This document shows positions 9,591 to 30,104 of a stretch of 64,000 nt of DNA, one piece after another; within the stretch, counting starts at the first letter, position 1, and every line of letters starts with the position of its first letter. Origin of the DNA: Hyphococcus luteus (GTDB taxonomy: Bacteria; Pseudomonadota; Alphaproteobacteria; Caulobacterales; Parvularculaceae); the NCBI RefSeq assembly GCF_002943565.1, contig NZ_PJCH01000015.1, forward strand, positions 372,001 through 436,000, given 5' to 3'. The position numbers were made by a program, and so were the translations under genes. Below the pieces are notes generated by a model, which had not been told where the DNA came from, searched no databases, and was given only the letters and a program-made list of their open reading frames with translations.

Positions 9591-9640
9591 GGCTTCAAGG
9601 GAAAGCCTCATTGAGGTCGACCGGAAAATCTGGATGCTGA
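9290..9640 (+). pseudogene. Truncated duplicate of a hotdog thioesterase
   Basis: From the ATG at 9290 the frame encodes about 100 residues almost identical to the PaaI-like protein at 36779 (start MTQFANLPLRQWFRFDVEE; GGVVSTFLELAALHELRRAL). It then loses the last beta strands of the hotdog fold and ends in an unrelated tail (LRRLQGKASLRSTGKSGC). The reading frame overlaps the 3' end of the eda gene on the other strand. It is very unlikely to make a working enzyme. The intact copy lies in the MarR operon 27.5 kb away. Confidence 0.8.
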
Positions 9641-10258
9641 CTGTAAGTCCACAGCGGTTCTGGCATTGTCTTCAATCACCACCCAGGCGCTCTCTGCAAT
9701 CAGTTGTTTCGTCGCAACCCACGAACCGCCGACGCAAGCGACGTTGGGAAGCGCGAGATAGTCCAGCGCACGGGCGGCGCTGACGCCGCCTGTCGGGCAA
9801 AACCTGACGTCAGGCAATGGTCCCGCGAGGGCCTTGAGATAGGAAACCCCGCCCGCCAGCTCAGCCGGAAAAAATTTCTGCGCTTTAAATCCCGCCTCAA
9901 ATGCGGCGATTGATTCAGATGCGGTCGCAACACCGGGCATCGACGGCGCGCCGGATGCCGCCAGCTCACCAAGAAGGGTCTCGCTTGCGCCAGGGCTGAC
10001 CAGGAACGCCGCGCCGGCGTCTATCGCTGCAACGACATCGCTAGGTTTACAGATCGTCCCGACGCCAACGATCAACTCGGGCGCCGCGGATCGCATTGCG
10101 GCGACCACCTCTAGGGCACAGGGCGTTCGCAGGGTCACCTCAACGACCTGCATGCCGCCTCGGGCAAGCGCTTTGGCCAGCGGCGTCGCCTTTTCAAGGG
10201 AGGAAACTTCGAGAACCGGGATGATCTTCGCAACGTCGAGAATGTCGTCGATATTCAA
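9608..10258 (-). CDS. eda: 2-keto-3-deoxy-6-phosphogluconate aldolase
   Basis: The last Entner-Doudoroff enzyme, a class I aldolase that splits KDPG to pyruvate and glyceraldehyde 3-phosphate. The 216-residue protein has the TIM-barrel motifs of the family: VVEVTLRTPCALEVV with the active-site glutamate, VGVGTICKPSDV, and AQKFFPAELAGG with the Schiff-base lysine. Length is normal. The start is the TTG at 10258, which overlaps the glk stop codon as TTGA; the longer frame to 10372 only reads antisense-like sequence inside glk. It is the last gene of the zwf-pgl-edd-glk-eda run. Confidence 0.95.
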   Translation of the reverse strand: MNIDDILDVAKIIPVLEVSSLEKATPLAKALARGGMQVVEVTLRTPCALEVVAAMRSAAPELIVGVGTICKPSDVVAAIDAGAAFLVSPGASETLLGELAASGAPSMPGVATASESIAAFEAGFKAQKFFPAELAGGVSYLKALAGPLPDVRFCPTGGVSAARALDYLALPNVACVGGSWVATKQLIAESAWVVIEDNARTAVDLQSASRFSGRPQ

Positions 10259-11223
10259 TTGTCTGTCTCCATAGACGCCGCCGCGCCGAATAGCGCCGCG
10301 TTTTCTGTGATGATCAATTGCACAGGAACGGCGCCGACGTAATCGGACATCCGCCCCTTGTCCTTGAAACACCGGAGAAAATCGCTGTTAAGAAAAACTT
10401 CCTTCATTTTTGGTAGGATGCCGCCGCCCAGAACAACGCCGCCGCGCGCGCCCGTCGCCAGTACGGCGTCGCCCGCGACCCGGCCTAAAATGGCGCAGAA
10501 CATCTCTACCGCTTTCACAGCGATCATATGTCCACCCGTGGTCGCGGCGCTGGTGATTTCGTGCGCCTGCATGAAATCGCAACCAGCTCCCTCGATTGCG
10601 CAAAGAGCGCGATGGATCCGGACAAGTCCGCCACCAGACAATAGCCGCTCGACCGACACGCGCGGATGGTCCCGGCTGATCAGGTTCCTGATTTCGATTT
10701 CGTCTTGCGTATACGGCGCAAAAGCAACGTGACCGCCTTCAGTGGCGATGACCTTGCGACCCCAGCTTGTTGGCGCAATCAGCGCCTGGCCGAGACCTGT
10801 GCCGGGGCCGATGACAAGCTGCGGCGCATCTGTCATAGGTGAACCGTCCTTGACCTTGAGAACGCTGTCGCCGGGAAGATGCGCGAAGCCTGCCGCCAGA
10901 GCGAAAAAATCGTTGACGATGCGCAACTGCTCGATACCCAAAGGCCGCGCGATCTCGGGCCCGCACAACGTCCAGTGCGAATTGGTGAAATCAACTTTAC
11001 CATCGACGACCGGGCCAGCGGCTGCAAAGCACGCGCGCTTCGGTTTTGCTGCAACGGTGTCGAGATAGGCGGTGGCCGCATCAAGTACGTTTTCGAAGTC
11101 CATAGCGCGATAAACCATCGCATCGCGAACCGCGTACTTCTCGCCGATCTCAACCGCAATGGCGAAACGGGCATTCGTTCCCCCGATATCGGCAACCAAA
11201 AAGGGGTCAGCCACGATCCGCAT
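10255..11223 (-). CDS. glk: Glucokinase (ROK-independent Glk family)
   Basis: A 322-residue cytoplasmic kinase making glucose 6-phosphate from ATP and glucose. The phosphate-binding loop [10 protein letters not shown] lies at residues about 12-21, the catalytic aspartate sits in [13 protein letters not shown], and [13 protein letters not shown] and EGGHVAF are the other Glk signatures. Length is typical of bacterial Glk. It overlaps edd by 17 bases upstream and eda by 4 downstream, so the three are translated from one message. Its product feeds zwf in the same cluster, which suggests that the sugar brought in by the neighbouring symporter is glucose or is converted to it. Confidence 0.94.
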
Positions 11224-13033
11224 CCAGATTAACAGTCATCGCGCCTGTCTCCGCGGGACCAACCAACGCCCGAAATCCGGCGAAGAGTTCACGGCCGGTT
11301 CCCCAGTGGTCCGGATCGAGCTTGTGCGCCAACATCTGGCGGCCATTAAGATCGGCATCGGTTGTGAGGACGCCGGCCTGCGCATCGAGGCGAATCATGT
11401 CGCCGTCGCGAAGTTTTCCGATCGCGCCGCCGTCGACGGCCTCTGGGGTTACATGGATCGCGGCGGCCACCTTTCCGCTGGCCCCTGACATGCGGCCGTC
11501 CGTGATCAGAGCCACTTTAAATCCTTTCTCCTGAAGGACAGCGAGAGGCGGCGTCAGGCGGTGAAGCTCCGGCATGCCGTTCGCCTTGGGACCTTGAAAT
11601 GGAACAACGGCGACGAAATTGCGGTTCAGCTCGCCCGCCCGAAATCGATCGATCAATTCCTGCTGGCTACGAAACACGATCGCCGGCGCGGCAAGGGTTC
11701 GCTTTTTCGGCTCAACCGCCGAGACTTTGATTACGGCCCGGCCGAGGTTGCCCTTGAGTATGCGAAGCCCGCCAGTTTTCGAAAATGGATTTTGCGCCGG
11801 CCGCAATGTCTCGCCGTCGCCGGACCGGGCGGGCGGGGAGCGCCAGCCGAATGCGCCGTTCTCAAGATGCGGCTCGGCGGCGAAGCGGCGAAGCCCCTTC
11901 CCCATGACGGTCGTCACGTCCTCATGCATAAGCCCGGCGTCGAGCAGTTCGCGAATGACGAACCCCAACCCTCCTGCGGCGTGAAAGCGATTCACGTCCG
12001 CCATGCCGTTCGGGTAAATGCGCGCCAGCAACGGCGTTACATCGGAAAGCGCGGAAAAATCATCCCAGTCAATGACAATGCCGCACGCCCGCGCCATGGC
12101 CACAAGATGAATCGTGTGGTTGGTCGACCCCCCAGTGGCGTGGAGGCCGACCATCGCGTTGACGATCGCGCGTTCATCGACGACGTGGCAGAATGGAATA
12201 TACGTGTTGCCGAGCGCAGTCACGGACGCCGCCTGCAGCGCGGTTTTTCTGACAATGGCTTCGCGCAGAGGCGTTCCAGGATTGACGAAGGCGGATCCAG
12301 GGACGTGCAGCCCCATCGCCTCCATCATCATCTGGTTGGAGTTGGCGGTGCCATAAAACGTGCAAGTGCCAGGCGAATGATAACTCTCGCTTTCAGCCCT
12401 CAAGAGCGCATCGCGGCCGACCTTTCCTTCGGCGTGCAGTTGTCGCACGCGTGCCTTCTCGTTGTTCTCCAGGCCGGACGTCATCGGCCCGGCCGGTAGG
12501 AACAAAATGGGAAGATGACCGAAACGCGCGCCTCCAATAAACATGCCCGGCACTATCTTGTCGCAGACGCCCAACATGAGCGCGCCGTCAAACACATTGT
12601 GCGAAAGCGAGACCGCTGTAGCCATGGCGATTACGTCGCGGGAAAACAGCGACAAGTCCATGCCGGGCTGTCCCTGCGTAACGCCGTCGCACATGGCTGG
12701 CACGCCGCCGGCGATCTGCCCCGTGGCGCCGATTTCGCCAAGCGCCGCCTTAATGACGTCGGGATATGCGCCGAGCGGCTGATGCGCGGACAGCATGTCG
12801 TTATGGGCCGTGACGATGCCTATATTTGGGCAGACGCCCTCGGCGAGGCGTTTCTTGGCGACGGCATCGCACGCCGCCGCCGCATGCGCCAGGTTTCCGC
12901 ATGATAAATGAGATCTGTGGGGTCCTTTCGAGGCGGCGACGCGCATCAGTTTCAAATAGGCGTTGCGCGTCTTTTCGCTGCGTTCGCAGATGCGATCGGT
13001 AACGCGCGTTACAACGTGATTCAGCTTCACCAC
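11207..13033 (-). CDS. edd: 6-phosphogluconate dehydratase
   Basis: A 608-residue member of the IlvD/Edd family that dehydrates 6-phosphogluconate to KDPG using an iron-sulfur cluster. Visible signatures are [48 protein letters not shown] and, near the C-terminus, [18 protein letters not shown]. The cluster cysteines in the MCDG, GVCDK and PGTCTFYG segments are present. Length is typical. It lies between pgl (10 bp gap) and glk (17-bp overlap) in an Entner-Doudoroff operon. Confidence 0.96.
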
Positions 13034-13043
13034 AGCTTTTTCC

Positions 13044-13742
13044 TCATGGCGCCCAGCAGACTAAAAGGTCGGGCCGCGCCCGCAAAATGGCTCGGACCGG
13101 CATGTCCTCAACCGGACCGTCCGCCATCGCCGCCTCGAAAGCAGCGCGTTTTTCCCCGCCTGCTATAGTCAAGATCACGAGCGGCGCTTTGGCGATCGCG
13201 GAAAGCGACATCGTGATGCGCTCGACTTCGTCGCCGGTCGCTTCGCTTCGGCGCGCCGTCACGGCGCATACGGGTTTATCGCTCCGGAGCGCATTCGCAA
13301 GGCCCTGTGCCTGGGGAAACCATGAGGCCGTATGCCCGTCCTCGCCCATGCCGAGCACCACTACATTGAATGCAGGTCGATCCCCGGCTGCACAGATCCT
13401 GCCAGCGGCCTTTTCAGCCGACACGCCGTCTTGATAGAGCCCACTGATCCGCGCACAGGTCGCGGCAGCGAACGCATTGCGCACAAAGGTCTCGTTGGAA
13501 CGGGGATGATCCGGCGGGACCCAGCGCTCATCGATTAACGCAACCGCAATGCGCCCCCAGGGTAGGTCCCGCTCGGCCAGCGCCTCGTAAAGCGGTTTCG
13601 GCGTCGTCCCCCCGGAAACGGCGATCGCCGCGCTACCGTTAAGGCGCGCCCCACGGTCAAGCTCCGTTGCGATCAGGGCACTGATCCGCATTGCAAGCGC
13701 TTCGCGTGATGTGAATGCGGTCATCGCCGGCTCAAGCGCCAT
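13044..13742 (-). CDS. pgl: 6-phosphogluconolactonase (SOL/DevB type)
   Basis: A 232-residue soluble lactonase that opens 6-phosphogluconolactone. It shows the DevB/SOL pattern: [20 protein letters not shown] near residue 42, then [23 protein letters not shown] and [17 protein letters not shown]. It overlaps the end of zwf by 11 bases and precedes edd by 10, so the three consecutive oxidative steps are arranged in order. The frame has the usual length and no missing core motif. Confidence 0.94.
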
Positions 13743-15219
13743 TGAACCACTCCCGTCCTTCGCGATCGAGCATCATGGCGGCCTGCGCCGGCCCTTCCGT
13801 GCCCGCAGCGTAATTGTAGACAGGCGTGTCATCCTGTGCCCATGCGTCGCGGATTCCATCGACCCAACGCCACGCGGCCTCAACCTCGTCGCGGCGCATG
13901 AACAGACCGAGATCACCGCGCACCACAGCCATCAGGAGCCGCTCATAGGCGTCAGGATAGCGAGCCTCAAACTGTTCCGCGTAAGAAAGATTCAGAGGCA
14001 CATAGCGAAGCCGCATACCGCCGGGGCCGGGATCTTTTGTCACGAGGAGCAATTTGACGCCTTCATCCGGCTGGAGCCTGATCACCATTCGCGTCGGTGG
14101 CAGAGGCTCGTCATCAACCAGGGCGTGCGCAATATCCTTAAACTGAATAATGATCTCGGAATAACGAGACGCCATCCGCTTTCCCGTGCGCAAATAGAAC
14201 GGGACGCCTTTCCAGCGCCAGTTATCGACATTAGCCCTAATCGCGACAAACGTTTCGGTATCGGACGGGCCCCCAAGCTCTTCACAGTAACCGGCAGCCA
14301 CTTCGCCGTCGATAGCGCCCTTACCGTACTGGCCTCTGACCGTAGACGAACGCACATTCACGCGCGAAATCGGGCGCAGGGCGCGCAATACCTTTATCTT
14401 TTCATCGCGTAGCGTATCGGAATCAAGATCAAGCGGCGGCTCCATCGCCACAAGACACAGCAATTGCAGCAGGTGGTTCTGCACCATGTCGCGTAGCGCG
14501 CCAGCGGCGTCATAATAGCTGGCCCGTCCGCCGGCTCCAATTGTTTCCGCGACGGTAATTTCCACGTGGTCGATAGCGTTGGCATTCCACACCGGTTCAA
14601 ATAACGAGTTCATGAACCGCAAAACGATCAGATTCTGGACGGTCTCCTTTCCGAGATAATGGTCGATCCGGTAAATTTCGTCTTCGTTGAATACGGCGCC
14701 GACCGCGGCGTTAATATCGCGGGCGCTTTGCAAACCCGCGCCGATTGGCTTTTCCAGAACGATACGCGCGCCGGCCTGGTTCAGGCCAGCGGCGGCGATA
14801 TTGGCGCTGACCGCGCCGTAAAGCGCCGGCGGCAGCGCAAGATAAAAAATGCGTTGTTTGTCGCCGGCGCCCTTCAGCGCGTTGCGTACGTATGACCAAT
14901 CGGCTTCGGCATGCGCCGCATCAAGTCCGCAATAGCGGAGGTTGTTCGTAAAGGCGCCCCACTCCGCCTCGTCAACTCTCTCGCTTGGATGAAATTCCCG
15001 AAAGCTCCCAAGCGCCAGCTTGCTAAAGCCAACGCAATCCATTTCGGCGCGCGATACGCCGACAATCCTCGAAGTCTTCGATATCTGTCCGTCGCGCCAC
15101 CGATGAAACAATGATGGAATCAGTTTTCGAAGCGCAAGATCGCCCGTAGCCCCGAACACTATTATATCAAATTCAGGTACTGGAACTAATGCCGACCTTG
15201 CTGAGAAATGACCACCCAT
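13732..15219 (-). CDS. zwf: Glucose-6-phosphate 1-dehydrogenase
   Basis: A 495-residue enzyme oxidising glucose 6-phosphate with NAD(P)+. The Rossmann motif FGATGDLALRKLIPSLF lies near residue 20, and the active-site peptide RIDHYLGKETVQNL is intact, including the catalytic histidine. I chose the ATG at 15219, giving MGGHFSARSALVPVPEFD, because it follows the stop of the FGE-like gene by 8 bases with a purine-rich ribosome site. The longer frame to 15333 lies inside that gene. It begins the Entner-Doudoroff block, directly behind the sulfatase-maturation gene. Confidence 0.95.
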   Translation of the reverse strand: MGGHFSARSALVPVPEFDIIVFGATGDLALRKLIPSLFHRWRDGQISKTSRIVGVSRAEMDCVGFSKLALGSFREFHPSERVDEAEWGAFTNNLRYCGLDAAHAEADWSYVRNALKGAGDKQRIFYLALPPALYGAVSANIAAAGLNQAGARIVLEKPIGAGLQSARDINAAVGAVFNEDEIYRIDHYLGKETVQNLIVLRFMNSLFEPVWNANAIDHVEITVAETIGAGGRASYYDAAGALRDMVQNHLLQLLCLVAMEPPLDLDSDTLRDEKIKVLRALRPISRVNVRSSTVRGQYGKGAIDGEVAAGYCEELGGPSDTETFVAIRANVDNWRWKGVPFYLRTGKRMASRYSEIIIQFKDIAHALVDDEPLPPTRMVIRLQPDEGVKLLLVTKDPGPGGMRLRYVPLNLSYAEQFEARYPDAYERLLMAVVRGDLGLFMRRDEVEAAWRWVDGIRDAWAQDDTPVYNYAAGTEGPAQAAMMLDREGREWFNGA

Positions 15220-15227
15220 CGTCCCGT

Positions 15228-16295
15228 TCACAGCCGCTTCACCGTACGAAATCCCACATGCGAGGTCGCTAGATAAGCGTCCTGCGGCTGGCGCGATTGC
15301 GGACGGTAACGGAAACAGAAATTCTTTGCGCAAAGATAAGAGCCGCCCTTTATGACATTGACGGGTATCCCAGGTTGCTCCGGTGCGTATCCTTGAGGAA
15401 ATTCATCCCGTAACCCATCCGCTGCGTGGCGTGGATAATAGGGACTGGCAGTCAACTCCCAGACATTGCCGACCATATCGTAAAGGCCGTGCTTGTTCGC
15501 CTTGAAACAGCCCACGGGCGCGAGTCCCGTAAAACCATCCTCGCCGCTGTTGATAAACGGAAACATACCCTGCCAGTAATTGGCCGAAGGCGCGGCGGGG
15601 TTGGCGCCAGCGTCGCGAGCGGCGGCGTATTCCCATTCCGCCTCCGTTGGCAGCCGACGTCCTTTCCAGTTCGCATAAGCGATCGCGTCCTCGATCGCGA
15701 TGTGAACGACCGGGTACTGGTCTTTGCCTTCGATCGTGCTGCCTGGCCCGTACGGATGGCGCCAGTCTGCGCCCGGCGTAAAGCGCCACCAAGCGGAAGG
15801 CGTCATAGCTTCCCGCGCCTCCGGCGGCGAGAAAACCAGCGAACCGGGTTGACGGAGTTCCTCAGGCAATTCAGCCGCAACGGTCGTATCGAGACCGCGT
15901 TCAGCACGGGTGACATAGCCGGTTGCATCGACAAATTCACTGAACGCCTGATTGGTCACTTCGGTGCGGTCGATTTCGAAGGCCTCAATGCTGACTTCCC
16001 GCACGAGGCCTTCTTCACGGTAAAGCCCTCCTTCCCCAAGCCGCACCGTTCCGGCCGGTATGGCGACGGAACCATCCGCGCCCTCTCTCGGCGCCAAACA
16101 GTGGGCATCGGCATCAGGCACCGTAACGACGGCCCTGTCGCAGGCAACAGCCATCAGGCTCGCAAGGGAGATGCAAAATATTTTTAGGGCTCTGATGCTC
16201 GGAGACAATTGATCTGTTTCCAAATCAATTTTGACTGTAGCTCGAGTGGAGCAATTTATTAAACCTCCAGCCGACATAAGCATATTCACATTCAC
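15228..16295 (-). CDS. Formylglycine-generating enzyme (sulfatase maturase)
   Basis: A 355-residue FGE-sulfatase (SUMF1) domain protein. It oxidises the active-site cysteine of sulfatases to formylglycine. The domain runs from about residue 75 to the end: EVTNQAFSEFVDATGYVT, RLPTEAEWEYAAR, GNVWELTASPYY, and finally GGSYLCAKNFCFRYR, which keeps the catalytic pair Cys322 and Cys327 with the same C-x4-C spacing as human FGE. An N-terminal segment ending LASLMAVAC suggests a lipoprotein, or at least an exported protein. The GTG at 16295 abuts the symporter stop; a TTG at 16208 would place the signal peptide closer to the N-terminus. Three Cys-type sulfatases in this window are likely clients. Confidence 0.88.
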   Translation of the reverse strand: MNVNMLMSAGGLINCSTRATVKIDLETDQLSPSIRALKIFCISLASLMAVACDRAVVTVPDADAHCLAPREGADGSVAIPAGTVRLGEGGLYREEGLVREVSIEAFEIDRTEVTNQAFSEFVDATGYVTRAERGLDTTVAAELPEELRQPGSLVFSPPEAREAMTPSAWWRFTPGADWRHPYGPGSTIEGKDQYPVVHIAIEDAIAYANWKGRRLPTEAEWEYAAARDAGANPAAPSANYWQGMFPFINSGEDGFTGLAPVGCFKANKHGLYDMVGNVWELTASPYYPRHAADGLRDEFPQGYAPEQPGIPVNVIKGGSYLCAKNFCFRYRPQSRQPQDAYLATSHVGFRTVKRL

Positions 16296-17858
16296 TCACC
16301 AGTAGAATGCATAAAGGAAAATCAGAGTGGAGGCGACGACAACGGAGCCGAGATTGAATACCGGGCCCGTTCTAAAGGAAATGTCGCCGAGCCGCACCGC
16401 TTTCTCCTCACAGTCTGGCTTCTGCATATATGACAGCGCGACACCGACCGCGAGACAGGAGAGAAAAACCAGGCCGACGCGATCAATAAATGGCATTTCG
16501 GGAAGCTGGATCTTGAAGGCAAGCGACAGGGCGAACGATCCTATGACAGCCGCGATCACGCCAAACTCCGTCGCCCGCTTCCAAAACATGCCGAGCACGA
16601 AGATGGCGACAATACCGGGTGTGAAGAAACCGGTGTATTCCTGAATAACCTGAAAGACCTGATCAGCGCCGTCGAGCAGCGGCCGCGCCGCGAGGACAGC
16701 GATGGCAAGCGCCGAAAAGCTGGTGATGCGGCCGACGCGCACCAGCTCGCGCTCGGATCTGTCTTTACCTAGCAATGGCCGGTAGAGGTCCATCGTAAAG
16801 ATCGTCGAAATCGAATTCATCATCGAGCCAAGCGAAGACACAATCGCAGCGATCAACGCAGCGAAGATCAACCCGCGAATCCCCGCTGGCACGAGCTTCA
16901 TCATCTCCGGATATGCTTGGTCCGGCTTTGCCAGATCTGGCGCCAAGGACACGGCGGCGATTCCTGGCACGACAATAATAAAAGGCGTCACTACTTTCAG
17001 GAAAGCGGCGAACATAACCCCCTTTTGCGCTTCCGCTACGCTCTTCGCCGCCAGCGCACGCTGGATGATATATTGATTGAAGCCCCAATACGAAAAATGC
17101 ATGATCCACATCCCGCCCAGGATAACGCCGAGACCGGGCAAATTAGCGTATTGCGGATTATCTTTTGAAAGGATCATGTCGAAGCGTTCAGGAAACTCAG
17201 CCACAAGCTCCTGATATCCGCCCCACACGGAACCGTCGCCTACTTGCGTCAGCGTCACATGCGTGATCAGGGCGCCGCCGAGAACGAGCAGCACAACCTG
17301 AATGATATCGGTAAGCGCCACCGCTTTCAGTCCTCCATAAAGAGAATACGCTGCGGCGAACATCGCAAGCAGCACCATGCCGAGCATCATTTCGGCACCA
17401 GCAAGCGCGTTGATCGCCGTCGCCCCAAGCCACAAAATGGTCGTCAAATTGACGAAAGTATATATGCCGATCCAGAAGACCGACATCACATATTTGACGC
17501 CGCTGCCGAAGCGCTGCTCCAGAAACTGCGGCATCGTATAAATGCCGCGCTGTAAAAAGATCGGCAAAAAGTACTTGCCGACAACGATCAGCGTGATGGC
17601 GGCGAGCCACTCATAAGAGGCAATCGCCAGACCGATGGCGTAACCCGAACCGGACATGCCGATGATCTGTTCCGCCGAAATATTGGCGGCAATGAGCGAC
17701 GCCCCGATCGCCCACCACGGCAGCGCCTTGCCCGCAAGGAAATAATCCGCAGTATCCTTCTTGTGACCGGCCGCTTCGCGGCTGACCAGCGTTGCAATTG
17801 CGATAAGCGCCAGAGCGTAACCAGCAATAATAACAATATCCAGAAACTCAAGCGCCAT
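16296..17858 (-). CDS. Sodium/solute symporter, SGLT-like (SSS family)
   Basis: An inner-membrane protein of 520 residues with about 13-14 hydrophobic helices, of the sodium:solute symporter family. It resembles the sugar-transporting vSGLT branch: an early DYFLAGKALPWWAIGASLIAAN segment, the FNQYIIQRALAAKS segment in the middle, and SSLGSMMNSISTIFTMDLYRP later. The start at 17858 (MALEFLDIV) removes five residues of the longer frame. Downstream come the FGE gene with no gap and then zwf. The context, with glk and zwf in the same run, points to a neutral hexose. The exact sugar cannot be read from sequence. Confidence 0.88.
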   Translation of the reverse strand: MALEFLDIVIIAGYALALIAIATLVSREAAGHKKDTADYFLAGKALPWWAIGASLIAANISAEQIIGMSGSGYAIGLAIASYEWLAAITLIVVGKYFLPIFLQRGIYTMPQFLEQRFGSGVKYVMSVFWIGIYTFVNLTTILWLGATAINALAGAEMMLGMVLLAMFAAAYSLYGGLKAVALTDIIQVVLLVLGGALITHVTLTQVGDGSVWGGYQELVAEFPERFDMILSKDNPQYANLPGLGVILGGMWIMHFSYWGFNQYIIQRALAAKSVAEAQKGVMFAAFLKVVTPFIIVVPGIAAVSLAPDLAKPDQAYPEMMKLVPAGIRGLIFAALIAAIVSSLGSMMNSISTIFTMDLYRPLLGKDRSERELVRVGRITSFSALAIAVLAARPLLDGADQVFQVIQEYTGFFTPGIVAIFVLGMFWKRATEFGVIAAVIGSFALSLAFKIQLPEMPFIDRVGLVFLSCLAVGVALSYMQKPDCEEKAVRLGDISFRTGPVFNLGSVVVASTLIFLYAFYW

Positions 17859-17978
17859 AATATGTATCCACAAAAGCCGAACTATCGTTGTTCACAGCAG
17901 CCGATTTATTCGCATCACGATCACTGAGGCGGACAATTCCTTTTCTGCACCCCAATACGTCTTCCTTAGTCGCATCTG

Positions 17979-19613: not shown

Positions 19614-19730
19614 GATTCTAATTCGCCTTGTGCTCCTGACGGCAGTCGAGAGTTTCCGCCTGCCGCATTTCAATCCCGTCCCGCGCACTCGCGGCCAGGG
19701 CTATTGTCGACGCTCACCCGCAAACGCGCG

Positions 19731-21149
19731 TCAGCGATCCAAGGCCAACAGCCATGGATCATTGGTATCAACCATGAACTTGTGAAGATCGTTCTTCATC
19801 CTGTTCAGAATCTCACGATGACCAGGGTCATCGGCGAGATTGTTCAACTCGTCCGGATCCTCAACAAGGTCATAGAGTTCGAACTCCGGTCGATCAAAAA
19901 ATTCTTTTTTGGAACGGTTCGCGTAATGATCATCACCACTGTCAAGAAACGCTCTCCATGTTGAAGACTGCTCAAGATCGAGCGCCATCGGGAAATCGAG
20001 AGTCGGCTCAAGATTATGTATAAGCTTGTAGCGACCTGTGTGAATCATCCGAACCGGATAATACATGTGAATTTCGTGGAAAGAATGCGATCCGAAAATC
20101 GCAGCCCGGTTCATTTTCCCCGATTTCTGAATGTGTTTCTTCAGTGATACGCCGCGCAGCGTTTCACCCTCAGCCGACGCATTTGCATAATCAAGAATTG
20201 TAGGCGTGATATCCATCCATGACACGAGAGCATCGCTGACATCGCCGCCGGCTCGTCGGCTCTTCGGGTCGCGAATGATCAATGGCAAATTGATGCCCGG
20301 CTCATAGAGGGTCGTCTTGGCGCCAGGGAAAGCGACTCCATTATCGGACAGATAAATGATAATCGTGTTTTCGAGCTTCCCATGTTTCTCCAGGACCGCG
20401 CGCAGGGCGCCGACTCCCTGATCGAGCCGCGATACGGATGAATAGTATTGAGCCAGTTCTTCGCGTACCGCCGAAATGTCCGGTAGAAATGCCGGGACTT
20501 TCACGTCTTCCGGCCTATATTCGACGTGAGTGATTCCAGGGTAGCCTTCATTGCGATTACCGAAACTGTTCGGCGCGGGATAAGTGTCGAAGGGAAACGC
20601 GCGGTGCGGATCATCTGTGGCGAAGTAGAGGAAGAAAGTGCCGTCCGCAGCGATAAAATCTTCCGATAACTCAACCATTTCGACCGGGCTGCGCGCGACG
20701 GAGGCCATGTCGTTGGCGGCGCCGTCCGAAAGCGGGCTGTCGAATTTGTAAACCGCGTCCGGCGCAAGATGCACTTTGCCGACCCGCCCGGTTCGATAGC
20801 CGCTATCGGCCAGCATGACTGGCAATGATTTTATATCGTCGAACGAACTGAAATGATGTTCCCAGTGCTGCAATCCGTACATGCCGTTTTCGTGATTCTG
20901 CTTGCCCGTCAGCAGAACAGATCGGCTCGGACTGCAGCTAGAAACCGTCGCATGAGCATTCGTGAACCGGACGCCTTCAGCGGCGAGCCGATCCAAGTTT
21001 GGCGTTTGAACTACATCATTTCCGTATGCGCCGATCGCGTCGAGCCCGTGGTCGTCGGCGACGATCAGGACAATGTTCGGCCGTTCCGCGGCGTAAGCGG
21101 ATGAGATTGCGAATAGAACAATTGTAAAAAATGTGATTGCGGCTCTCAT
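19731..21149 (-). CDS. Sulfatase, N-sulfoglucosamine sulfohydrolase-like
   Basis: A 472-residue type I sulfatase with a signal peptide (cleavage near residue 20, AYA-AE). The modification motif is CSPSR at Cys72, the cysteine form that needs an FGE. It strongly recalls mammalian SGSH: NGMYGLQHWEHHFSSFDDIKSLP, GKVHLAPDAVY, FATDDPHR, RLDQGVG, YLSDNGVAFPGAKTTLYEPG and a C-terminal DPDELNNLADDP box. SulfAtlas family S1_8 would be my guess. The activity could be on N-sulfo or O-sulfo sugars. The start at 21149 follows the stop of the previous sulfatase within a few bases, so the two are coupled. The FGE gene is 3.4 kb downstream. Confidence 0.88.
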   Translation of the reverse strand: MRAAITFFTIVLFAISSAYAAERPNIVLIVADDHGLDAIGAYGNDVVQTPNLDRLAAEGVRFTNAHATVSSCSPSRSVLLTGKQNHENGMYGLQHWEHHFSSFDDIKSLPVMLADSGYRTGRVGKVHLAPDAVYKFDSPLSDGAANDMASVARSPVEMVELSEDFIAADGTFFLYFATDDPHRAFPFDTYPAPNSFGNRNEGYPGITHVEYRPEDVKVPAFLPDISAVREELAQYYSSVSRLDQGVGALRAVLEKHGKLENTIIIYLSDNGVAFPGAKTTLYEPGINLPLIIRDPKSRRAGGDVSDALVSWMDITPTILDYANASAEGETLRGVSLKKHIQKSGKMNRAAIFGSHSFHEIHMYYPVRMIHTGRYKLIHNLEPTLDFPMALDLEQSSTWRAFLDSGDDHYANRSKKEFFDRPEFELYDLVEDPDELNNLADDPGHREILNRMKNDLHKFMVDTNDPWLLALDR

Positions 21150-21151
21150 TT

Positions 21152-22624
21152 CTACTCCTGTGGCCAGTTCTGAACGCGCTGGGGCCATCCCTTGCGGCTC
21201 GGAAGTTTTTTCCAGATCGGCGCTTCGTCGAGGTCCTTGATCAGGATTTTCTGCAGTTCGAGCGCCAGCATCCGCGTCGTCTCGGGCTGAGACTTCGCCA
21301 GATCTTTCGTCTGGCCCGGATCTTTGCGGATATCGTAAAGTTTGAAGGTGTCGAACTCCGACGGCATCCGTCGAATGTCTTCCTGATCTTCAGCGGCGAT
21401 AAAGTGCGTTCGCGCAGTCGAGTCGTCGAAGGACGCGACAAGAACGTAGTCACCGGAACGCAGCGCCGCTTGAGGTTTGTTCCTATAGAAGAACCACGCC
21501 ATCGGCCGAGGGCGATTTGGCGCCGCCTCACGAAGAAATGGCAGGATGCTGACGCCGTCGCGCGACAACCGTGCGGCGTCCTCAACCGAAAGCATCGCAC
21601 TTAGTGTGGGCAACAAATCGACCGCGCCGGCGGGAAAGGTGTAGAGGCCATTTGGCACCCCCGGTCCCGCCATAACGAACGGCACCCGAATTCCGCCTTC
21701 GTAGACCAGGTTTTTCTCGCCAAGCAACCCGCCGGTTTCCCCCGGCTTGATAGGCCCGTTGTCGGACTGAAAGACGATCACAGTGTTTTCAAGAAGGGAT
21801 CGTTCGTCGAGCGCGGCGATGACCCGTCCAATAGCCGAGTCGAGATTTTCTATGTTGGCCAGATATTCCGCTTCGACAGGACCGTATCCTTGCTCGGCAT
21901 ATTTTTCGATCAAGTCTTCGGGCGAAGCGATCGGCGAATGGGGCTCGTGAAAAGCAAGATAATAGAAGAACGGCCGATCGGCGTCGCGCTTGTCCAACTG
22001 CGCAATAACGTCCGATGCGACAATCTGAGCTGAATAGCCTTCGATCTTGCCGAGCGGTTCGCCGTTGCGAAAAAAATTCGTCGGATTGAGATGGCTTGGA
22101 AATGCGTTGTTCGGCGTCCCGAATGTATAGTCGAATCCGTGATCGGCAGGCTGCGGATGCGGATGTGACGCCGTTTTCGGATAAGCCCCGAGATGCCATT
22201 TTCCGAAATGCGCGGTTTGGTAACCGGCGGATTTCAACATTTCAGGCATTGTCAGGAATGACTCTTTGAGCCACACCTGCTCTTCGGCAAGATCCCGACC
22301 TGGCCGGCGCGCGCGGATATAGGTGAATATTCCTGTCGACATCGGGAACCGGCCAGTAAGAAGTCCAGCGCGCGAAGGCGAACACACTGGCGCAGCCGCG
22401 TAATAGTCAGTAAACATCGCGCCGCGATCGGCAAGCTTCTGAATGTTGGGCGATTGCGCTTTTCCGCCATAAGTCGCGAGATCACCATAGCCAAGATCAT
22501 CCGCAAGAAAAATGACTACATTAGGCTTTTTGCCTGGAGCGGCGGCGTAAGCGGACGTGAAGCAACCGATTAGCGTTACAAGGGCCGCCAGAACGGCAGG
22601 CTGTGAAATCTTGAATTTACTCAT
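21152..22624 (-). CDS. Sulfatase, GALNS/arylsulfatase-like
   Basis: A 490-residue exported sulfatase with an N-terminal signal peptide ending near AYA at residue 27. The formylglycine motif is CSPSR at Cys81. Metal ligands are visible in FLADDLGYGDL and VFQSDNGPIK, and substrate-pocket residues in FGKWHLG and AFHEPH. The pattern resembles N-acetylgalactosamine-6-sulfatase and steryl/aryl sulfatases more than the SGSH type next door. The two neighbouring sulfatases are therefore likely to remove sulfate from different positions. The final codons are followed at once by the next sulfatase gene. Confidence 0.9.
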   Translation of the reverse strand: MSKFKISQPAVLAALVTLIGCFTSAYAAAPGKKPNVVIFLADDLGYGDLATYGGKAQSPNIQKLADRGAMFTDYYAAAPVCSPSRAGLLTGRFPMSTGIFTYIRARRPGRDLAEEQVWLKESFLTMPEMLKSAGYQTAHFGKWHLGAYPKTASHPHPQPADHGFDYTFGTPNNAFPSHLNPTNFFRNGEPLGKIEGYSAQIVASDVIAQLDKRDADRPFFYYLAFHEPHSPIASPEDLIEKYAEQGYGPVEAEYLANIENLDSAIGRVIAALDERSLLENTVIVFQSDNGPIKPGETGGLLGEKNLVYEGGIRVPFVMAGPGVPNGLYTFPAGAVDLLPTLSAMLSVEDAARLSRDGVSILPFLREAAPNRPRPMAWFFYRNKPQAALRSGDYVLVASFDDSTARTHFIAAEDQEDIRRMPSEFDTFKLYDIRKDPGQTKDLAKSQPETTRMLALELQKILIKDLDEAPIWKKLPSRKGWPQRVQNWPQE

Positions 22625-22741: not shown

Positions 22742-23608
22742 CTAACATACGTCGGTTCTGTCGCAGAACGCTGCCGCCAGACGCCACCCCAAGATCCGAT
22801 GCGACTCCGAGTCGAGATGAAGCCCGTCATCACCGGTTTTTAAATTCGAGCTATCGACGACGCTCAAGGCGCTACCGCTGATCTCAGCCTGCATTTTCTG
22901 AACGTCGCTCCAGAATGGATATCGATCGTTAAGCGACGCGCCGAGCTCTGGGAGGGGCACAACGAACACCGGAAGCGCAGAGTTGTCGAGGTCAGCGCGA
23001 AAAGCGCCGATTACGGTTCGAAAAAGCTTCCCCCAGCTGCGCGCGCGTATATCATCTCTCGCATCGCGCTCGCCTTGGTAGAAAAGCAGCGCACGAACTT
23101 CTCCAAATTGGCGCGCTGCCTCAACATTCCCTAGACACCGTTCATAAAGACCTTCCGTCGTCGCGCCCGAAGGTTCGGAAACCCATTCGACAATGCTTGA
23201 TCCGCTAACTGCGCACGGTACAAGAACTATGTCCTGCTTGACGCCCATTGAACGCAAGGCGAGGGCGAAGCTGACGCCAACTCCCTGCGTGTAATTTCCG
23301 GCCTTTCTTGGCCAGGGGTCGTCGAGGCCAGAGCGCGATACGAAATCAGCGATCGGCCGGCGCTCCAGACCCCACACGTAGCTTATGCCTGTCGAACGCA
23401 ATACATCGTCGCGAAACACGTCGTCCAATTTCCCGCGCGAAACCATGTTGGACTGCCCGGCCAGCACAAAAATCATGGGCTGGTCGGCGGTAAGCGCGAT
23501 CACCTCGCTAGAACGCCCCCCGCCAACACACGCAGCCACAAGCGCAAACAGGCACGCCAAACACACTTTGCGGCCCAATAAAGTCAATTCTCTGCGTCTA
23601 TCCATCAT
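22742..23608 (-). CDS. SASA/CE6-type carbohydrate acetylesterase, lipoprotein
   Basis: A 288-residue SGNH-like hydrolase of the sialate O-acetylesterase/CE6 group. Block I is VLAGQSNMVSRG with the nucleophile serine; ALLFYQGERDARDD is the usual QGE block; DDGLHLDSESHRILG is the block with the catalytic Asp and His. The N-terminus holds a signal sequence ending in LVAAC, so it is probably a lipoprotein. It is encoded between the TBDR and the sulfatases, which suggests removal of acetyl groups before or together with desulfation of a glycan. Confidence 0.85.
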   Translation of the reverse strand: MMDRRRELTLLGRKVCLACLFALVAACVGGGRSSEVIALTADQPMIFVLAGQSNMVSRGKLDDVFRDDVLRSTGISYVWGLERRPIADFVSRSGLDDPWPRKAGNYTQGVGVSFALALRSMGVKQDIVLVPCAVSGSSIVEWVSEPSGATTEGLYERCLGNVEAARQFGEVRALLFYQGERDARDDIRARSWGKLFRTVIGAFRADLDNSALPVFVVPLPELGASLNDRYPFWSDVQKMQAEISGSALSVVDSSNLKTGDDGLHLDSESHRILGWRLAAAFCDRTDVC

Positions 23609-23782
23609 CAGTCTTTCTGCGGTTCCCGCCCCACCTGCGAAGATAACTCCCTCGGAGCCACGGGTCGGTTTTCAGCTTTGGCGAGACCGCATCTCATTCT
23701 TCATCGCCGCAGCGGGCGCCCGCAAGGATTGGAAACTTTCGGACTGCCGACGCACCGATCCGGCGATGGATTGAAATTGCTG

Positions 23783-26623
23783 CTAGTAGCTACCACGCAC
23801 GCCGAGAAAGAGACGTCTCCCGGTATATTCGTTGAGCAACACGCGCTCACGAATATCTGCAAAACGGATCGTATTTTCGTTGAGCAGATTGCTCGCTTCG
23901 GCCGTCAGTTCGAAGTGATCATTGATCTTGAACCCGAGGCCCGCATCAAGCTGTCCATAGGCGTCAATGTGACTGGCTATACCTTCGGCGCCGGAGCGGA
24001 ATTCTAGGAATGTGTCGCGCCAGTTCCAGGCGACGCGAGCGCGGAAACGCTCATCTTCGTAGAAGCCCACGATGTTATAGGAATGAGGCGTGAAACCCTC
24101 AAGTCCGTTGTCGGGAAGCGTGGCGAGCGGCAATTCGGCGATTTCATCATTCGCAGCGGCGTCCTCACTGGACACGAAAGTGTAGTTTGCCTGCACACCT
24201 AAATTTCTGGCAAAGCCAGGGAGGAAATCAAAGTTCACCAAAGCGGCGATCTCGAAGCCCTGAATCGTGCCTCCCTGCCGGTTTCGCGGCGCTTGGTCGC
24301 GGATGATAATGTCGCCAAATGTCGGGTGATCGTACCCCGAATCCACAAGAACTGTCTGTTCGGAAATGAACGTCTCGATTTCCTTGTAGAACAGAGAAAT
24401 TGAGAACGCGTTCCCGTTCTCCGCATAATGCTCAAGCGCGCCGTCAAGCTGGAACGCCTCATAAGGGTCAAGGTCAGGGTTGTTCGCGATCCGCTGGAAG
24501 CTTTCGATGCTCCGTGACGGGAAGGTCTGGCCAGGAATGATCTTTCCAAGCGTCGGCCGAGAGATCACTTTCGCAGCAGCGAAACGGAAATAGGTTCCCC
24601 GCGAGAGCTCAAGAGAAAAGTTGAAGCTCGGCAGGAAATTCGAATATTCATTGTCCGCTGTCACAATCTCGCTTGGCGATGTGGTGACTAGCAGACCCGA
24701 CGTCGATCCGTCTGGAGATTCCGGCGCTAAATTCAGCAACGCGGAAAACGGTCCTTCGGACGTCGTTTCAGTGCGTTCATATCGAATTCCGAAGTTCGCC
24801 GTGAAAGGCATCGAGCCAAATTCGCCGGCCAGGTCCATGCGCGCATAGCCGCCAAACACCGTCTCATCAACGCCGGTCCTGAAATCTTGCCGTTCTTGCA
24901 GCGAGCACACATTTTGGTTGAGCGTAGCTTCACGGACGTAATCGCAATAGGCGTCAACATCGATCAGGAGAAAATCCGTCAGAATGGAGGCGTTCTCGCT
25001 GCTAAGCAAATCAGGAACGGACACCGGCGTGAAAATAGCCGCGGGCGCCTGGAAAACGCGGCCCGAAGCATTGGGCCTTCCATACACGGAAAAAGGCGCG
25101 CCGGGCATTATCCAGGCGGGAATGTTGCCGCCGAGCGGGCCGTCTTCACCGTTCGGGCCGACGCCGTTATTAAAAGGCAGCGTCGACTTGCTGCGATCCC
25201 TGTAGAAACCGCCGATACTGAAAGACTTGAAGAGGCCGTGATCCACCTCGAAGGTTCCGTCCAGCCTGGTTTCAAACAGCTCGTCTTCGAGTTCGTCGGC
25301 GAGATGTCTCGCAACATGGATGCGCGCCAGGCTTGGATCTGAGAGATCCAAGCTGTTCGACCAGGACGGCACGTCGCCATTCGTCCAGGTTATGACATTC
25401 TGCTGGAAGGCGGGATCTGCAGCGCCGCCAGGCAAGGGATTATTCAGTGGGTTGTTATTCAAAATGCCTGGCGAAATCAGGATGGACTGATTTGTAGCTG
25501 AGGCGCGGGACCAGGATGCGTCGGCATTAAACGTCACGCGCTCGGTGGGCTCGAACGTTCCATGCCAGCCGATCGCATAAGTATTGCTCGCCGCGTTGTT
25601 TTCTTCATAGCGAATATCCAAGGGCCCGAAGAACTTGGTAAATGAAACGGCCGTGCCGTTCTCGTTCACAACCAGATTCGCCGGATCGAATGTCGGAAAC
25701 TGGAGAGGCGCGATAACTCCCTGCAACGTGCCGTCACGCTGGAAATCGACAAAAAGCCCGTCGACCACCATTTCCACTTTGTCCGACGGGCGCCATTGCA
25801 TGGTGCCATGAACAGCAATCCGGCGACGGTCGTCCTCGGAAAAACTCTGGCCTGAACGAGCCGGAACACGGAATTGGCGGACCTCGGTCCCCGGACCGCC
25901 GACGGGCCCATCGAAAAGAAACCAGCCGTTTCCTTGGCCGAAAGCTTCTCCGTTACGCGATTCTTCCGTCCGGACGACCCTATCCTCATAAGCCGCGCCG
26001 AGCAGTACGCCGAATGAGTCATCCGCGAATGTCTGCCCGATGACAGCCGATAGGCGCGGTCCCCATTTCTCGCCAAGATCTTGATAACGCGCCTGACCTG
26101 ATCCGACCAGTGTAAAACCCGACCCGTCAAGTGGCCGCGCCGTGCGAAGATTGACATTCGCACCGATTGATCCGCCCCACATATCGGCCGTCGGGCTCTT
26201 CACAACATCCGCGCCAACAATCAGTTCCGATGGTAGAATCTGGAAATCAAAGCTCCGTTCCTCCGTCACAGTTGCGAGGGTGCGGTCATTCATCCGCACA
26301 AGATTAAACTCTGGACCAAAACCGCGAACCGTGATCTGCGCACCCTCCCCGGCAACGCGATTGATTGTGACGCCTGTGATTCGCTGCAGCGACTCGGCTA
26401 CGTTTTGATCAGGAAATTTGCCGAGATCCTCTGCAGCGATTCCATCTATGAAGCTGTCTGCCGACCTCTTTCTCTGATTTGCCGTTTGCAGGCTGCCCCT
26501 GATTCCTGTAACAACAATAACATCGTCAGTATCAGCGCTGGTCAGCTCATCCTGAGCCGCAGCCGTCGTCGCTATTGCGCTCGCGCCCACCAACAATCCA
26601 AGCCTCGCTAATCGTCTGCTCAT
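23783..26623 (-). CDS. TonB-dependent receptor (TIGR01782-like), main start
   Basis: An outer-membrane active transporter of about 946 residues. From the ATG at 26623 a full signal peptide is encoded (MSRRLARLGLLVGASAIA, then TTAAAQ), followed by the TonB box DDVIVVTGIRGSL and a plug (DLGKFPDQNVAESLQRITGV, ITVRGFGPEF), then a beta barrel ending in GRRLFLGVRGSY with a terminal aromatic. The ATG has a strong GGGAGG site. The plug wording resembles TIGR01782 receptors used for oligosaccharides. Unusually, the frame stays open upstream for another 324 bases that encode an STN module, listed separately. FecI and FecR genes precede it, so it is probably a transducing receptor. Confidence 0.92.
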   Translation of the reverse strand: MSRRLARLGLLVGASAIATTAAAQDELTSADTDDVIVVTGIRGSLQTANQRKRSADSFIDGIAAEDLGKFPDQNVAESLQRITGVTINRVAGEGAQITVRGFGPEFNLVRMNDRTLATVTEERSFDFQILPSELIVGADVVKSPTADMWGGSIGANVNLRTARPLDGSGFTLVGSGQARYQDLGEKWGPRLSAVIGQTFADDSFGVLLGAAYEDRVVRTEESRNGEAFGQGNGWFLFDGPVGGPGTEVRQFRVPARSGQSFSEDDRRRIAVHGTMQWRPSDKVEMVVDGLFVDFQRDGTLQGVIAPLQFPTFDPANLVVNENGTAVSFTKFFGPLDIRYEENNAASNTYAIGWHGTFEPTERVTFNADASWSRASATNQSILISPGILNNNPLNNPLPGGAADPAFQQNVITWTNGDVPSWSNSLDLSDPSLARIHVARHLADELEDELFETRLDGTFEVDHGLFKSFSIGGFYRDRSKSTLPFNNGVGPNGEDGPLGGNIPAWIMPGAPFSVYGRPNASGRVFQAPAAIFTPVSVPDLLSSENASILTDFLLIDVDAYCDYVREATLNQNVCSLQERQDFRTGVDETVFGGYARMDLAGEFGSMPFTANFGIRYERTETTSEGPFSALLNLAPESPDGSTSGLLVTTSPSEIVTADNEYSNFLPSFNFSLELSRGTYFRFAAAKVISRPTLGKIIPGQTFPSRSIESFQRIANNPDLDPYEAFQLDGALEHYAENGNAFSISLFYKEIETFISEQTVLVDSGYDHPTFGDIIIRDQAPRNRQGGTIQGFEIAALVNFDFLPGFARNLGVQANYTFVSSEDAAANDEIAELPLATLPDNGLEGFTPHSYNIVGFYEDERFRARVAWNWRDTFLEFRSGAEGIASHIDAYGQLDAGLGFKINDHFELTAEASNLLNENTIRFADIRERVLLNEYTGRRLFLGVRGSY

Positions 26624-26947
26624 CTTTCTACCCTCCCGGCTGCCGGCAGGGGCAATCACAATGAAGCCCCCGTCCGTTTGAGCGCCACGCAGAGCAGTAT
26701 CGTCGAGCATAATTGAGAGAGCGTCATTGACGGAGAACTGACCGTTAACCTGGTTGGTCAGCACTTCGCGAACAACATTCAAATCAAACACGATGGAAAC
26801 GCCAGTCGATTCGGCCAATCGCTTTAGCGTATGCTCCGCCGGCCCGCGCTCAATATTTATTTGATGCGAGTTGGCACCGCTCGCAAATGCCGAACAGTGC
26901 GCCAGAATAATTAGCGCGGCGCATAAGCCCCGTAAGATTCGAAAAAT
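26624..26947 (-). CDS. In-frame STN signalling module upstream of the TBDR
   Basis: The receptor frame continues upstream with no stop. Residues read, from 26947, a signal peptide (FRILRGLCAALIILAHCSA, then FA) and a secretin/TonB short N-terminal domain: INIERGPAEHTLKRLAEST, VSIVFDLNVV, VNGQFSVNDALSIML and GGFIVIAPAG. STN domains of transducing receptors contact FecR. No ATG or GTG precedes the signal peptide; the only codon after a ribosome-site-like GGGAGG (4 bases away) is ATT at 26947, and TTG at 26818 would lose the signal peptide. Then comes a second signal peptide at 26623. It is either an unusual fusion or two overlapping products. Confidence 0.65.
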
Positions 26948-27025
26948 GTCGCCTCCCTATGTCGCCGTTTTAGCCTGGTGACTAACCAGAAGTCAGTTTG
27001 GCGAGAAAAATCCTCTACTCATAAT

Positions 27026-28102
27026 CTAAGGTTTTTCGATTTCGGTTTCTTTTTGTGTAATCTGGATAACGCCCTGAGGATTTTCAGTCGCTACCAAACC
27101 CAAACTTTCAACAATGATGTCAACTGCTTGGTCGGCATTGGAAAGCTGGAAGATTCCCGCAACCCGCGTTTGCGCCACGTCTTCACTCTCGATTTCGAAC
27201 GTCAGTCCCGTGTGCCGCGATAACTCTGATAAAACGAAATCAAGTCTTTCTCCGTCAAAATCCAAGAGATTGTCGCGCCATGCTGAACGCCGTTCCAATA
27301 CAGAGAATTCCACTTTATCGATAAGCGTTCCTTTTTCCGGCGCAGTGGTCAATTCCTGCCCAGCAACAATATACGCCTCATACTGAAGCGTCCCCGCATT
27401 TTCTTCCCGCCGCCCGTGTACTGAAGGATTCGACGGTGCTTGCACTTTTTGCGAAAAATGGACAGACCCCTCGAGTACGGAAACATTGAGCTCCTCACCT
27501 TCGTAACGAACGCTAAAAACGGTGCCGACCGCCTGCACAACATGCTCCCCCGCGACCACTATGAATGGTCGGTCCCTATCCTTTGCGACATCAAAAATAG
27601 CCTCGCCGCTTGCGAGGCGCACCTCACGTTTACCGGGGTCAATTTCCACTTCGACCCGGCTTGAAGAATTCACCGTTATGGCGGAGCCGTCCGGCAAAGC
27701 GGCACTCTCCGTTTCGCCGTATCCCGTCGCAATCTTAATGGTCGATACCTCCCGCACAACTGAAAAGCGCACTAAGGCGATCGCTGTGAAAACGATCGCA
27801 GAAGCGACCAATATAGCCGCTGACCAACGTCGCATGCGCCGATACCGAGACTGCCGCAAACTTAGCCGATGCTCACGCACCGCATTCACAAAAAACGGCT
27901 GAAGAATTGATGCGGCGTCTGAATCAACCCAAACGCGAGCGCACTGCAGAAGAGCCGCCCTGTGCGCCGGACTTCTGATGACCCACTCCTTCAAAGCCTT
28001 CTCGTCTTCCGCCGAAATTGGCCCGGATTCGAGCTGCGCAATCCACGATGCCGCTTCGGAAAGAATTTGATCGTTGCTTTCAAATGCTTGGTTTGCAGTC
28101 AT
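27026..28102 (-). CDS. fecR: FecR-like anti-sigma factor / sigma regulator
   Basis: A 358-residue inner-membrane regulator that holds its ECF sigma factor until the STN-bearing receptor signals. The cytoplasmic N-terminal domain (DUF4880-like: SEAASWIAQLESGPIS, LKEWVIRSPAHRAALLQ) ends at a transmembrane segment (about residues 93-112). A periplasmic FecR domain follows (TGYGETESAALPDGSAITVN, GEAIFDVAKDRDRPFIV, VQAVGTVFSVRYEG), then a C-terminal STN-like domain (LSELSRHTGLTFEIE). The gene begins 2 bases after the sigma factor stop and lies just upstream of the receptor. Confidence 0.92.
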   Translation of the reverse strand: MTANQAFESNDQILSEAASWIAQLESGPISAEDEKALKEWVIRSPAHRAALLQCARVWVDSDAASILQPFFVNAVREHRLSLRQSRYRRMRRWSAAILVASAIVFTAIALVRFSVVREVSTIKIATGYGETESAALPDGSAITVNSSSRVEVEIDPGKREVRLASGEAIFDVAKDRDRPFIVVAGEHVVQAVGTVFSVRYEGEELNVSVLEGSVHFSQKVQAPSNPSVHGRREENAGTLQYEAYIVAGQELTTAPEKGTLIDKVEFSVLERRSAWRDNLLDFDGERLDFVLSELSRHTGLTFEIESEDVAQTRVAGIFQLSNADQAVDIIVESLGLVATENPQGVIQITQKETEIEKP

Positions 28103-28104
28103 GT

Positions 28105-28665
28105 CTAGGACCGCTTTCCAGGTCTTAATAGCCGCACCGTGGAAGAACCCGCTTTCGCCGACTGCTGAGCCGTCTTCACCTGAACCAATCTTTTAAGGCC
28201 CGCGGCAACGTGTTTCTCTACGGTACTGGGCGATATGTCGAGTTTCGACGCAATCTCCTTCATCGAATACCCGTAAACCTTTTTCATTACAAAGACCTTT
28301 TGGCATTGTTCCGGCAGCGAATTCACCGCTTCGGCGAAATCCCGCCAAGCAGCCCGCGCCTCGATTGCCTCCTCCAAAGGCAATTCAGTACTGAAGTCCT
28401 CCGAAGCGCCTAAATCCTCTATATAATGAATGATTGACTGTGATTTTTTTGTAACTTCGCTTCGCAAGACATTCCTGGCCACCCCATAAAGAAACGCTCT
28501 GGGTTGTTCAATTTCCTGACGCTCCGCTGCACAGAGCGCTCGAAGAATAACTTCCTGTGTCAAGTCCTCGGCGTCCGCCCGCGAGCTCATGCGTCGCAGG
28601 AAGTAAGCACGCAGTTCTTTCTCATACCTGATGACCGATCGGACAAATGCTTTTCCTTTCGACAT
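28105..28665 (-). CDS. fecI: FecI-type ECF sigma factor
   Basis: A 186-residue extracytoplasmic-function sigma factor. Region 2 is AYFLRRMSSRADAEDLTQEVILRAL with FLYGVARNVL, and region 4 is LPEQCQKVFVMKKVYGYSMKEIASKLDISPSTVEKHVAAGLKRL. I chose the ATG at 28665 (MSKGKAFVRSV); the longer frame to 28743 adds 26 unlikely residues. With the following FecR and the STN/TBDR gene it makes a standard cell-surface signalling trio that probably switches on the sulfatase-sugar locus. Confidence 0.92.
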   Translation of the reverse strand: MSKGKAFVRSVIRYEKELRAYFLRRMSSRADAEDLTQEVILRALCAAERQEIEQPRAFLYGVARNVLRSEVTKKSQSIIHYIEDLGASEDFSTELPLEEAIEARAAWRDFAEAVNSLPEQCQKVFVMKKVYGYSMKEIASKLDISPSTVEKHVAAGLKRLVQVKTAQQSAKAGSSTVRLLRPGKRS

Positions 28666-30103: not shown

Positions 30104-30104
30104 A

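Follow-up and report, generated by a model that had tools for sequence, protein, structure and literature searches.

A sulfatase-to-Entner-Doudoroff gene run in Hyphococcus luteus that may serve a small sulfated and acylated glucose compound

Introduction

What might a marine bacterium do with a locus that joins sulfatases to a complete glucose pathway and holds no glycosidase? Sulfated sugars are a large marine carbon pool, and the systems described for them mostly combine sulfatases with glycosidases. The question is raised by a 64,000-nucleotide stretch of the Hyphococcus luteus genome (the window; G000, contig C7:372001-436000), in which 14 genes run in one direction from a putative surface sensor to the Entner-Doudoroff (ED) pathway. 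A sequence-only reading of the window had proposed a self-contained system for a sulfated glucose derivative. Our own reading, which we hold with moderate confidence, is that these genes would form a single-direction operon using a small sulfated and acylated compound of the glucose type.

Results

All 14 genes lie on the minus strand between positions 28743 and 9608. Pfam and motif matches confirm the gene set, the order and the common strand given by the sequence-only reading. In the order of transcription, the features are as follows; the C5 paralog is a second locus of the same genome, described below.

28105..28743, minus: FecI-type extracytoplasmic function (ECF) sigma factor; Pfam Sigma70_r2/r4_2; 57% to the C5 paralog
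27026..28102, minus: FecR anti-sigma factor/sensor; Pfam FecR (E 8e-22), DUF4880
26950..27025, minus: candidate ECF promoter region in the gap between fecR and the receptor gene; TAGAGGATTTT and GGTTAGTCACCA shared with the C5 paralog
23783..26947, minus: TonB-dependent receptor (TBDR) with an STN-like N-terminal end and a probable ATT start; Pfam Plug, barrel, weak STN; TIGR01782 above cut-off
22742..23608, minus: SASA-type acetylesterase, lipobox by eye; Pfam SASA (E 3e-39)
21152..22624, minus: sulfA, Cys-type sulfatase; Pfam Sulfatase, CSPSR; nearest solved chains 3ed4 and 9fo1
19731..21149, minus: sulfB, SGSH/S1_8-like Cys-type sulfatase with Lys291; phmmer 4mhx (E 4.8e-95), CSPSR
17979..19688, minus: carboxylesterase (COesterase), lipobox by eye; Pfam E 3e-104; nearest solved protein p-nitrobenzyl esterase
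16296..17873, minus: Na+/glucose-type SSF symporter; phmmer vSGLT 2xq2 (E 4e-159)
15228..16295, minus: formylglycine-generating enzyme (FGE), lipobox by eye; Pfam FGE-sulfatase (E 6e-66); GGSYLCAKNFC
13732..15219, minus: zwf; Pfam G6PD; TIGR00871 above cut-off
13044..13742, minus: pgl; Pfam Glucosamine_iso/6PGL; TIGR01198 above cut-off
11207..13033, minus: edd; Pfam ILVD_EDD; TIGR01196 above cut-off
10255..11223, minus: glk; Pfam Glucokinase; TIGR00749 above cut-off
9608..10258, minus: eda; Pfam KDPG aldolase; PRK05718 and TIGR01182 above cut-off

The genes are closely packed. With revised starts (ATG 21149 for sulfB, TTG 10258 for eda and, for zwf, probably ATG 15219 or else GTG 15231, in place of 15333), the gaps from fecI to eda are 2, 78, 174, 117, 2, 42, 105, 0, 8, -11, 10, -17 and -4 bp. 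The widest gap is 174 bp, and the zwf ATG lies 8 bp past the FGE stop. The sequence-only reading had also held that no glycosidase is present, and indeed none of the 14 products has a Pfam match to a glycoside hydrolase (GH) or polysaccharide lyase (PL) family, a negative that covers the locus and not the rest of the genome. Set beside the TBDR-based polysaccharide utilization loci of Proteobacteria, the locus has the receptor and the sugar-processing enzymes and lacks the GH or PL component.

The proposed end product, glucose, is supported by the last part of the locus. The zwf, pgl, edd, glk and eda products all exceed curated NCBIfam cut-offs; that is, the ED set is complete. The symporter passes an NCBIfam superfamily model only, and its nearest solved protein is vSGLT, to which the match spans residues 7-525. 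This close, full-length sequence similarity is that of a vSGLT-type symporter, and transport is predicted from it. The symporter is tied to glucose because relatives carry a window-like SSF gene between a GH97 or GH3 gene and zwf.

The genome has more than one ED set. A second zwf-pgl-edd-glk-eda set lies on contig C2 (zwf 77%, edd 77%, eda 64%, glk 57% and pgl 47% identical). Its zwf is part of a 2,468-bp repeat that recurs unchanged at the ends of contigs C1, C2, C7 and C16 (L015-L018) and spans zwf, pgl and the first part of edd. Since four of the five places with a zwf match in the genome are this one repeat, they most simply represent two further zwf copies. The C1 copy of the repeat follows genes for a TBDR, an SSF and a BadF/BcrA-type ATPase.

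The sulfatases bear on which sulfate group would be removed. The nearest solved relatives of SulfA are the arylsulfatase 3ed4 and an S1_16 carrageenan sulfatase. SulfB is identical to human sulfamidase (SGSH) at 181 of 447 aligned residues (~40%), with its formylglycine position at Cys85, and passes no NCBIfam cut-off. In the excerpted literature, SGSH belongs to S1_8 (PMC5066984), and SulfB is placed near S1_8 by its similarity to SGSH and to an S1_8A chain, not by a SulfAtlas profile. Ten active-site residues have been named for SGSH, and the O-sulfatases compared in that account have Lys at the position of Arg282 (PMC4014121, excerpt). SulfB keeps nine of the ten; the exception is Arg282 itself, which is Lys291, and Asp399, the salt-bridge partner of Arg282, is Ala402. 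Lys at this position is also found in the S1_8A chain and in all nine other bacterial sulfatases aligned, distant ones included, in an alignment that held no bacterial N-sulfamidase of known activity. Galactose-2-O-sulfatase activity is reported for S1_8B and S1_8C, and S1_8A was assigned to galactose-2-sulfate from its structure (PMC12549532, excerpt). Because Lys replaces Arg282 as in the S1_8A chain, SulfB is more likely a 2-O-sulfatase than an N-sulfatase, presumably acting on a gluco-configured sugar.

The operon FGE has the Pfam domain and the motif GGSYLCAKNFC, which we take, from human FGE, to hold the catalytic Cys pair; its NCBIfam matches (SenA, EgtB and others) all fall short of the cut-offs. 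In the whole genome there are 11 Sulfatase-family and seven FGE matches. Of the six FGE-family proteins that account for the seven FGE matches, three have the Cys pair, which rules out the operon FGE as sole maturase. The lipobox-like N-terminal ends of the FGE, the SASA esterase and the carboxylesterase suggest that both maturation and de-esterification may take place in the periplasm. Outside the locus, the window encodes a further Cys-type sulfatase (45958-47778, plus strand).

At the other end, an ECF sigma factor, FecR and an STN-type receptor adjoin each other in the layout of FecI/FecR cell-surface signaling, with two of the parts below their cut-offs. FecI passes the general NCBIfam sigma70-ECF model and does not reach the FecI equivalog cut-off, and the STN domain is weak (E 1.3e-4, 22.1 bits vs. 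a Pfam cut-off of 28.4). The receptor open reading frame (ORF) has no ATG, GTG or TTG upstream of the STN domain. In both this gene and its C5 paralog, an in-frame ATT follows GGGAGG (window 26947, minus strand; L020 ~10761), and after it comes a signal-peptide-like stretch. This ATT is probably the receptor start, possibly conserved between the paralogs. Just upstream, TAGAGGATTTT and GGTTAGTCACCA are kept in the window (26950-27025) and on C5 (L020 ~10770-10845), even though the two loci share just 57% identity in FecI and 49% in FecR; we regard this region as a candidate ECF promoter. Upstream of fecI, on the same strand, an RND efflux operon (28799-35654) leads into it over a 55-bp gap. 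A close copy of this efflux operon is found on C5 (L082 11769-17419; AcrB 90%).

The C5 paralog comprises fecI, fecR, TBDR, sulfA, sulfB, carboxylesterase, SSF and FGE genes at 49-88% identity, the SSF being the most similar at 88%. From fecI to FGE it has homologs of window genes only, with no match to SASA. The contig ends soon after FGE, and this end is also present on contig C15 (239 bp, 98%). A 33-residue zwf-like match at the end of the C5 FGE gene was not counted as zwf because it falls on the part of an over-long zwf ORF that overlies FGE, upstream of the chosen start.

The last part of the locus likewise has relatives of its own. Across the family, zwf was matched at E<=1e-60 in 39 of 60 genomes. 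FGE adjoins zwf in two of the 30 zwf loci returned, namely the window and that of a second genome, G189; two of the 30 had less than 0.6 kb of upstream sequence, too short to reveal either FGE or SSF. Eleven zwf stretches were taken, 10 of them long; a twelfth region taken with them is no zwf locus. Among these 10, three of which were not scanned with Pfam, four have GH97-SSF-zwf, one has GH3-SSF-zwf and two have GH13 adjoining zwf. In each of the five GH97/GH3 loci (L087, L088, L089, L090 and L094), as in the window, there is a receptor match (within ~12.5 kb) and a window-like SSF (57-80% identical), and then zwf. Unlike the window locus, they carry a glycosidase, and neither a sulfatase nor an FGE was matched within 1.5 kb of their zwf; L089, the one locus scanned for it, also has a tryptophan-halogenase-like gene. 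The window differs in turn by its FecI/FecR, sulfatases, esterases and FGE. Because half of the long zwf loci are so built, we conclude that the Parvularculaceae habitually attach an ED tail to sugar loci, and the idea that a complete central pathway in such a locus is uncommon is not supported for this family. Most likely, the window locus represents this family glucose-uptake/ED tail fused to a separate head of sulfatases, esterases and FGE.

The fused arrangement recurs in G189, a second Parvularcula genome, metagenome-assembled, whose contig C39 is a Parvularcula sp. NAT21 record; NAT21 (Parvularculaceae) is the nearest named relative carrying the locus. The FGE-zwf junction is kept there with the genes on both sides ~99-100% identical, which, with the 8-bp gap, supports the claim that the locus is one unit across this point. 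Near-identity extends from inside the SASA gene through eda, a block of ~16 kb: in 250-base steps it is 98-100% from ~7.25 to 23.25 kb, then 89% in the next step and 66-78% across the remaining SASA sequence and the receptor gene. In the 10 genes from sulfA to eda, 21 bases differ in total (overlaps counted twice). By comparison, the two genomes are 88-89% identical over 12.7 kb around rpoB and 91% at 31.5-37.1 kb (efflux genes); another 16-kb stretch gave short matches of 65-85% only and is possibly not orthologous. The G+C content of the block is 0.574, vs. 0.60-0.61 in the rpoB regions, and on its left is a mobile-element-like flank (689-7725) with signal peptidase S26, ParB-like, ArdC and AbiEi/AbiEii matches. 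These values are most simply explained by recent exchange of the block, FGE-zwf junction included, and the fused unit has probably moved between species. If C39 is G189's own, the block holds the only zwf match of that genome at E<=1e-60.

Two further features lie near the locus. LpxR matches at 7867-8832 sit in two separate ORFs, so that this gene looks split, and a 300-nt direct repeat (96%; 9210-9509 and 36699-36998) lies inside thioesterase-like genes flanking the region.

At E<=1e-60, SulfB was found in three of 398 genomes of the order (its own, G189 and a 38% match), and at E<=1e-80 in one of 385 genomes of a class sample (its own; G189 was not seen to belong to this sample). Scanning the named collection by pattern yielded four loci: Parvularcula sp. 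NAT21 and three Balneolaceae (45-49%). Among plasmids, 779 records matched, all below 60% identity; of three viewed in context, a Marinovum plasmid encodes ABC transporters and a KDG kinase, and no comparable ED set. In Catenovulum and Flammeovirga, sulfB relatives lie near GH27 and rhamnosidases or GH2.

A literature search brought up no comparable operon joining FGE to zwf or sulfatases to an ED set. Among the closest known systems are carrageenan loci, which also have sulfatases and, in Zobellia galactanivorans, catabolism genes for the released sugar (PMC5698469); lateral transfer has been suggested by their authors (PMC5698469, PMC12549532). As described in these excerpts, the Zobellia locus and the Pseudoalteromonas lambda-carrageenan locus (PMC12549532) include glycoside hydrolases and yield galactose or anhydrogalactose. 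In contrast, the window locus has no GH match, glucose as its predicted product, FGE within the operon and the whole set from zwf to eda. Its parts are each of a known kind; what is unusual is a sulfate-removing set, instead of a glycosidase, ahead of a glucose pathway.

Discussion

We propose that the locus would work as follows. A ligand would bind the STN-carrying receptor, and the signal would pass via FecR to FecI, which would switch on the receptor gene and the genes downstream of it. The compound would then be imported into the periplasm by the receptor. There, acyl groups would be stripped by the SASA esterase and the carboxylesterase, and sulfate by the two sulfatases, which the exported FGE of the operon would mature; the probable target of SulfB is the O-2 sulfate on a ring of gluco configuration. 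Glucose set free in this way would be taken up by the vSGLT-like symporter and phosphorylated by Glk, and its flux through Zwf, Pgl, Edd and Eda would lead to pyruvate and triose phosphate. A bolder version, which we think unlikely as a whole, is that this is a transferable operon, combining sensing, de-esterification, its own maturase, uptake and a route to pyruvate, for a sulfated and acylated glucose monomer such as a glucose-2-sulfate ester; SulfB would then be the first sulfamidase-like glucose-2-O-sulfatase, and the operon would supply the only zwf found in G189.

Several observations weigh against a single operon with one purpose. On C5, there is no zwf in the 224 bp between FGE and the contig end, so the head may serve without the ED tail; and in five of the 30 family loci a window-like SSF lies directly upstream of zwf without FGE. 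A break between FGE and zwf in relatives, which the sequence-only reading had named as a refuting result, is thus seen in part; in G189 the junction is unbroken. The maturase is not dedicated in the sense first claimed, since two further FGE-family proteins in the genome share its catalytic Cys pair, and the Arg/Lys comparison is bounded by the make-up of its alignment. Sigma70-like sites (nine, against 7.9 in shuffled sequence) and terminator-like sites (28, against 25.6) are at background. As to G189, contig C39 could be misbinned, because this metagenome-assembled genome is 4% contaminated and has a second rpoB-type match, on a contig 71-81% identical to the window genome; the G+C content of C39 is 0.571, vs. 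0.595-0.600 in three other G189 stretches. That C39 is simply a contig strayed from the species of the window is made less likely by its divergence at the receptor end. Finally, the shared block is evidence of physical linkage, not of joint function. A self-contained sulfated-glucose system is plausible; its substrate is a prediction, its link to the pathway is common in the family, and its head and tail appear separable in evolution.

Other explanations differ mainly in the compound that would enter the locus. Somewhat unlikely, though the strongest of these, is that it serves sulfated oligosaccharides of a glucose-containing polymer, with glycosidases or lyases encoded elsewhere and only desulfation, deacylation, uptake and catabolism here. 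The GH97 or GH3 genes in the SSF/ED loci of relatives would fit this, as would the GH27, rhamnosidase or GH2 neighbors of sulfB in Catenovulum and Flammeovirga and the 11 Sulfatase-family matches in the genome. Against it stand the absence of GH and PL matches among the 14 products and a C5 paralog that from fecI to FGE has only homologs of window genes; here the other contigs were not searched for glycosidases and the Balneolaceae loci not scanned with Pfam.

The separability of head and tail, each with relatives of its own, together with the absence of zwf past the C5 FGE, also suits a locus that scavenges sulfate from assorted aryl, lipid or alkyl esters and behind which recombination has placed an ED tail. 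We consider this improbable: the symporter is vSGLT-like and shared with C5 at 88%, zwf is 8 bp from FGE, and no sulfate transporter is among the 14 products. Heparan fragments had been suggested as a carbon source, and use of heparan or N-sulfoglucosamine, with SulfB as an N-sulfatase, would accord with human sulfamidase being the nearest solved structure to SulfB and with one Hepar_II_III match in the genome. That match lies ~380 kb off on the contig, SulfB has Lys for Arg282 and Ala for Asp399, and no deaminase-type gene is present, Pgl passing the 6-phosphogluconolactonase model and falling far below the glucosamine-6-phosphate deaminase cut-offs. Such a substrate is weakened to the point of being very improbable.

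Under the favored reading, a small sulfated and acylated glucose-type compound, the locus suggests a route by which de-esterification alone would free the sugar from small sulfated glucose compounds. The Arg-to-Lys switch in SulfB offers a concrete prediction on N- versus O-sulfate specificity. For the Parvularculaceae as a family, the comparison points to the re-use of one glucose-uptake/ED tail behind different heads.

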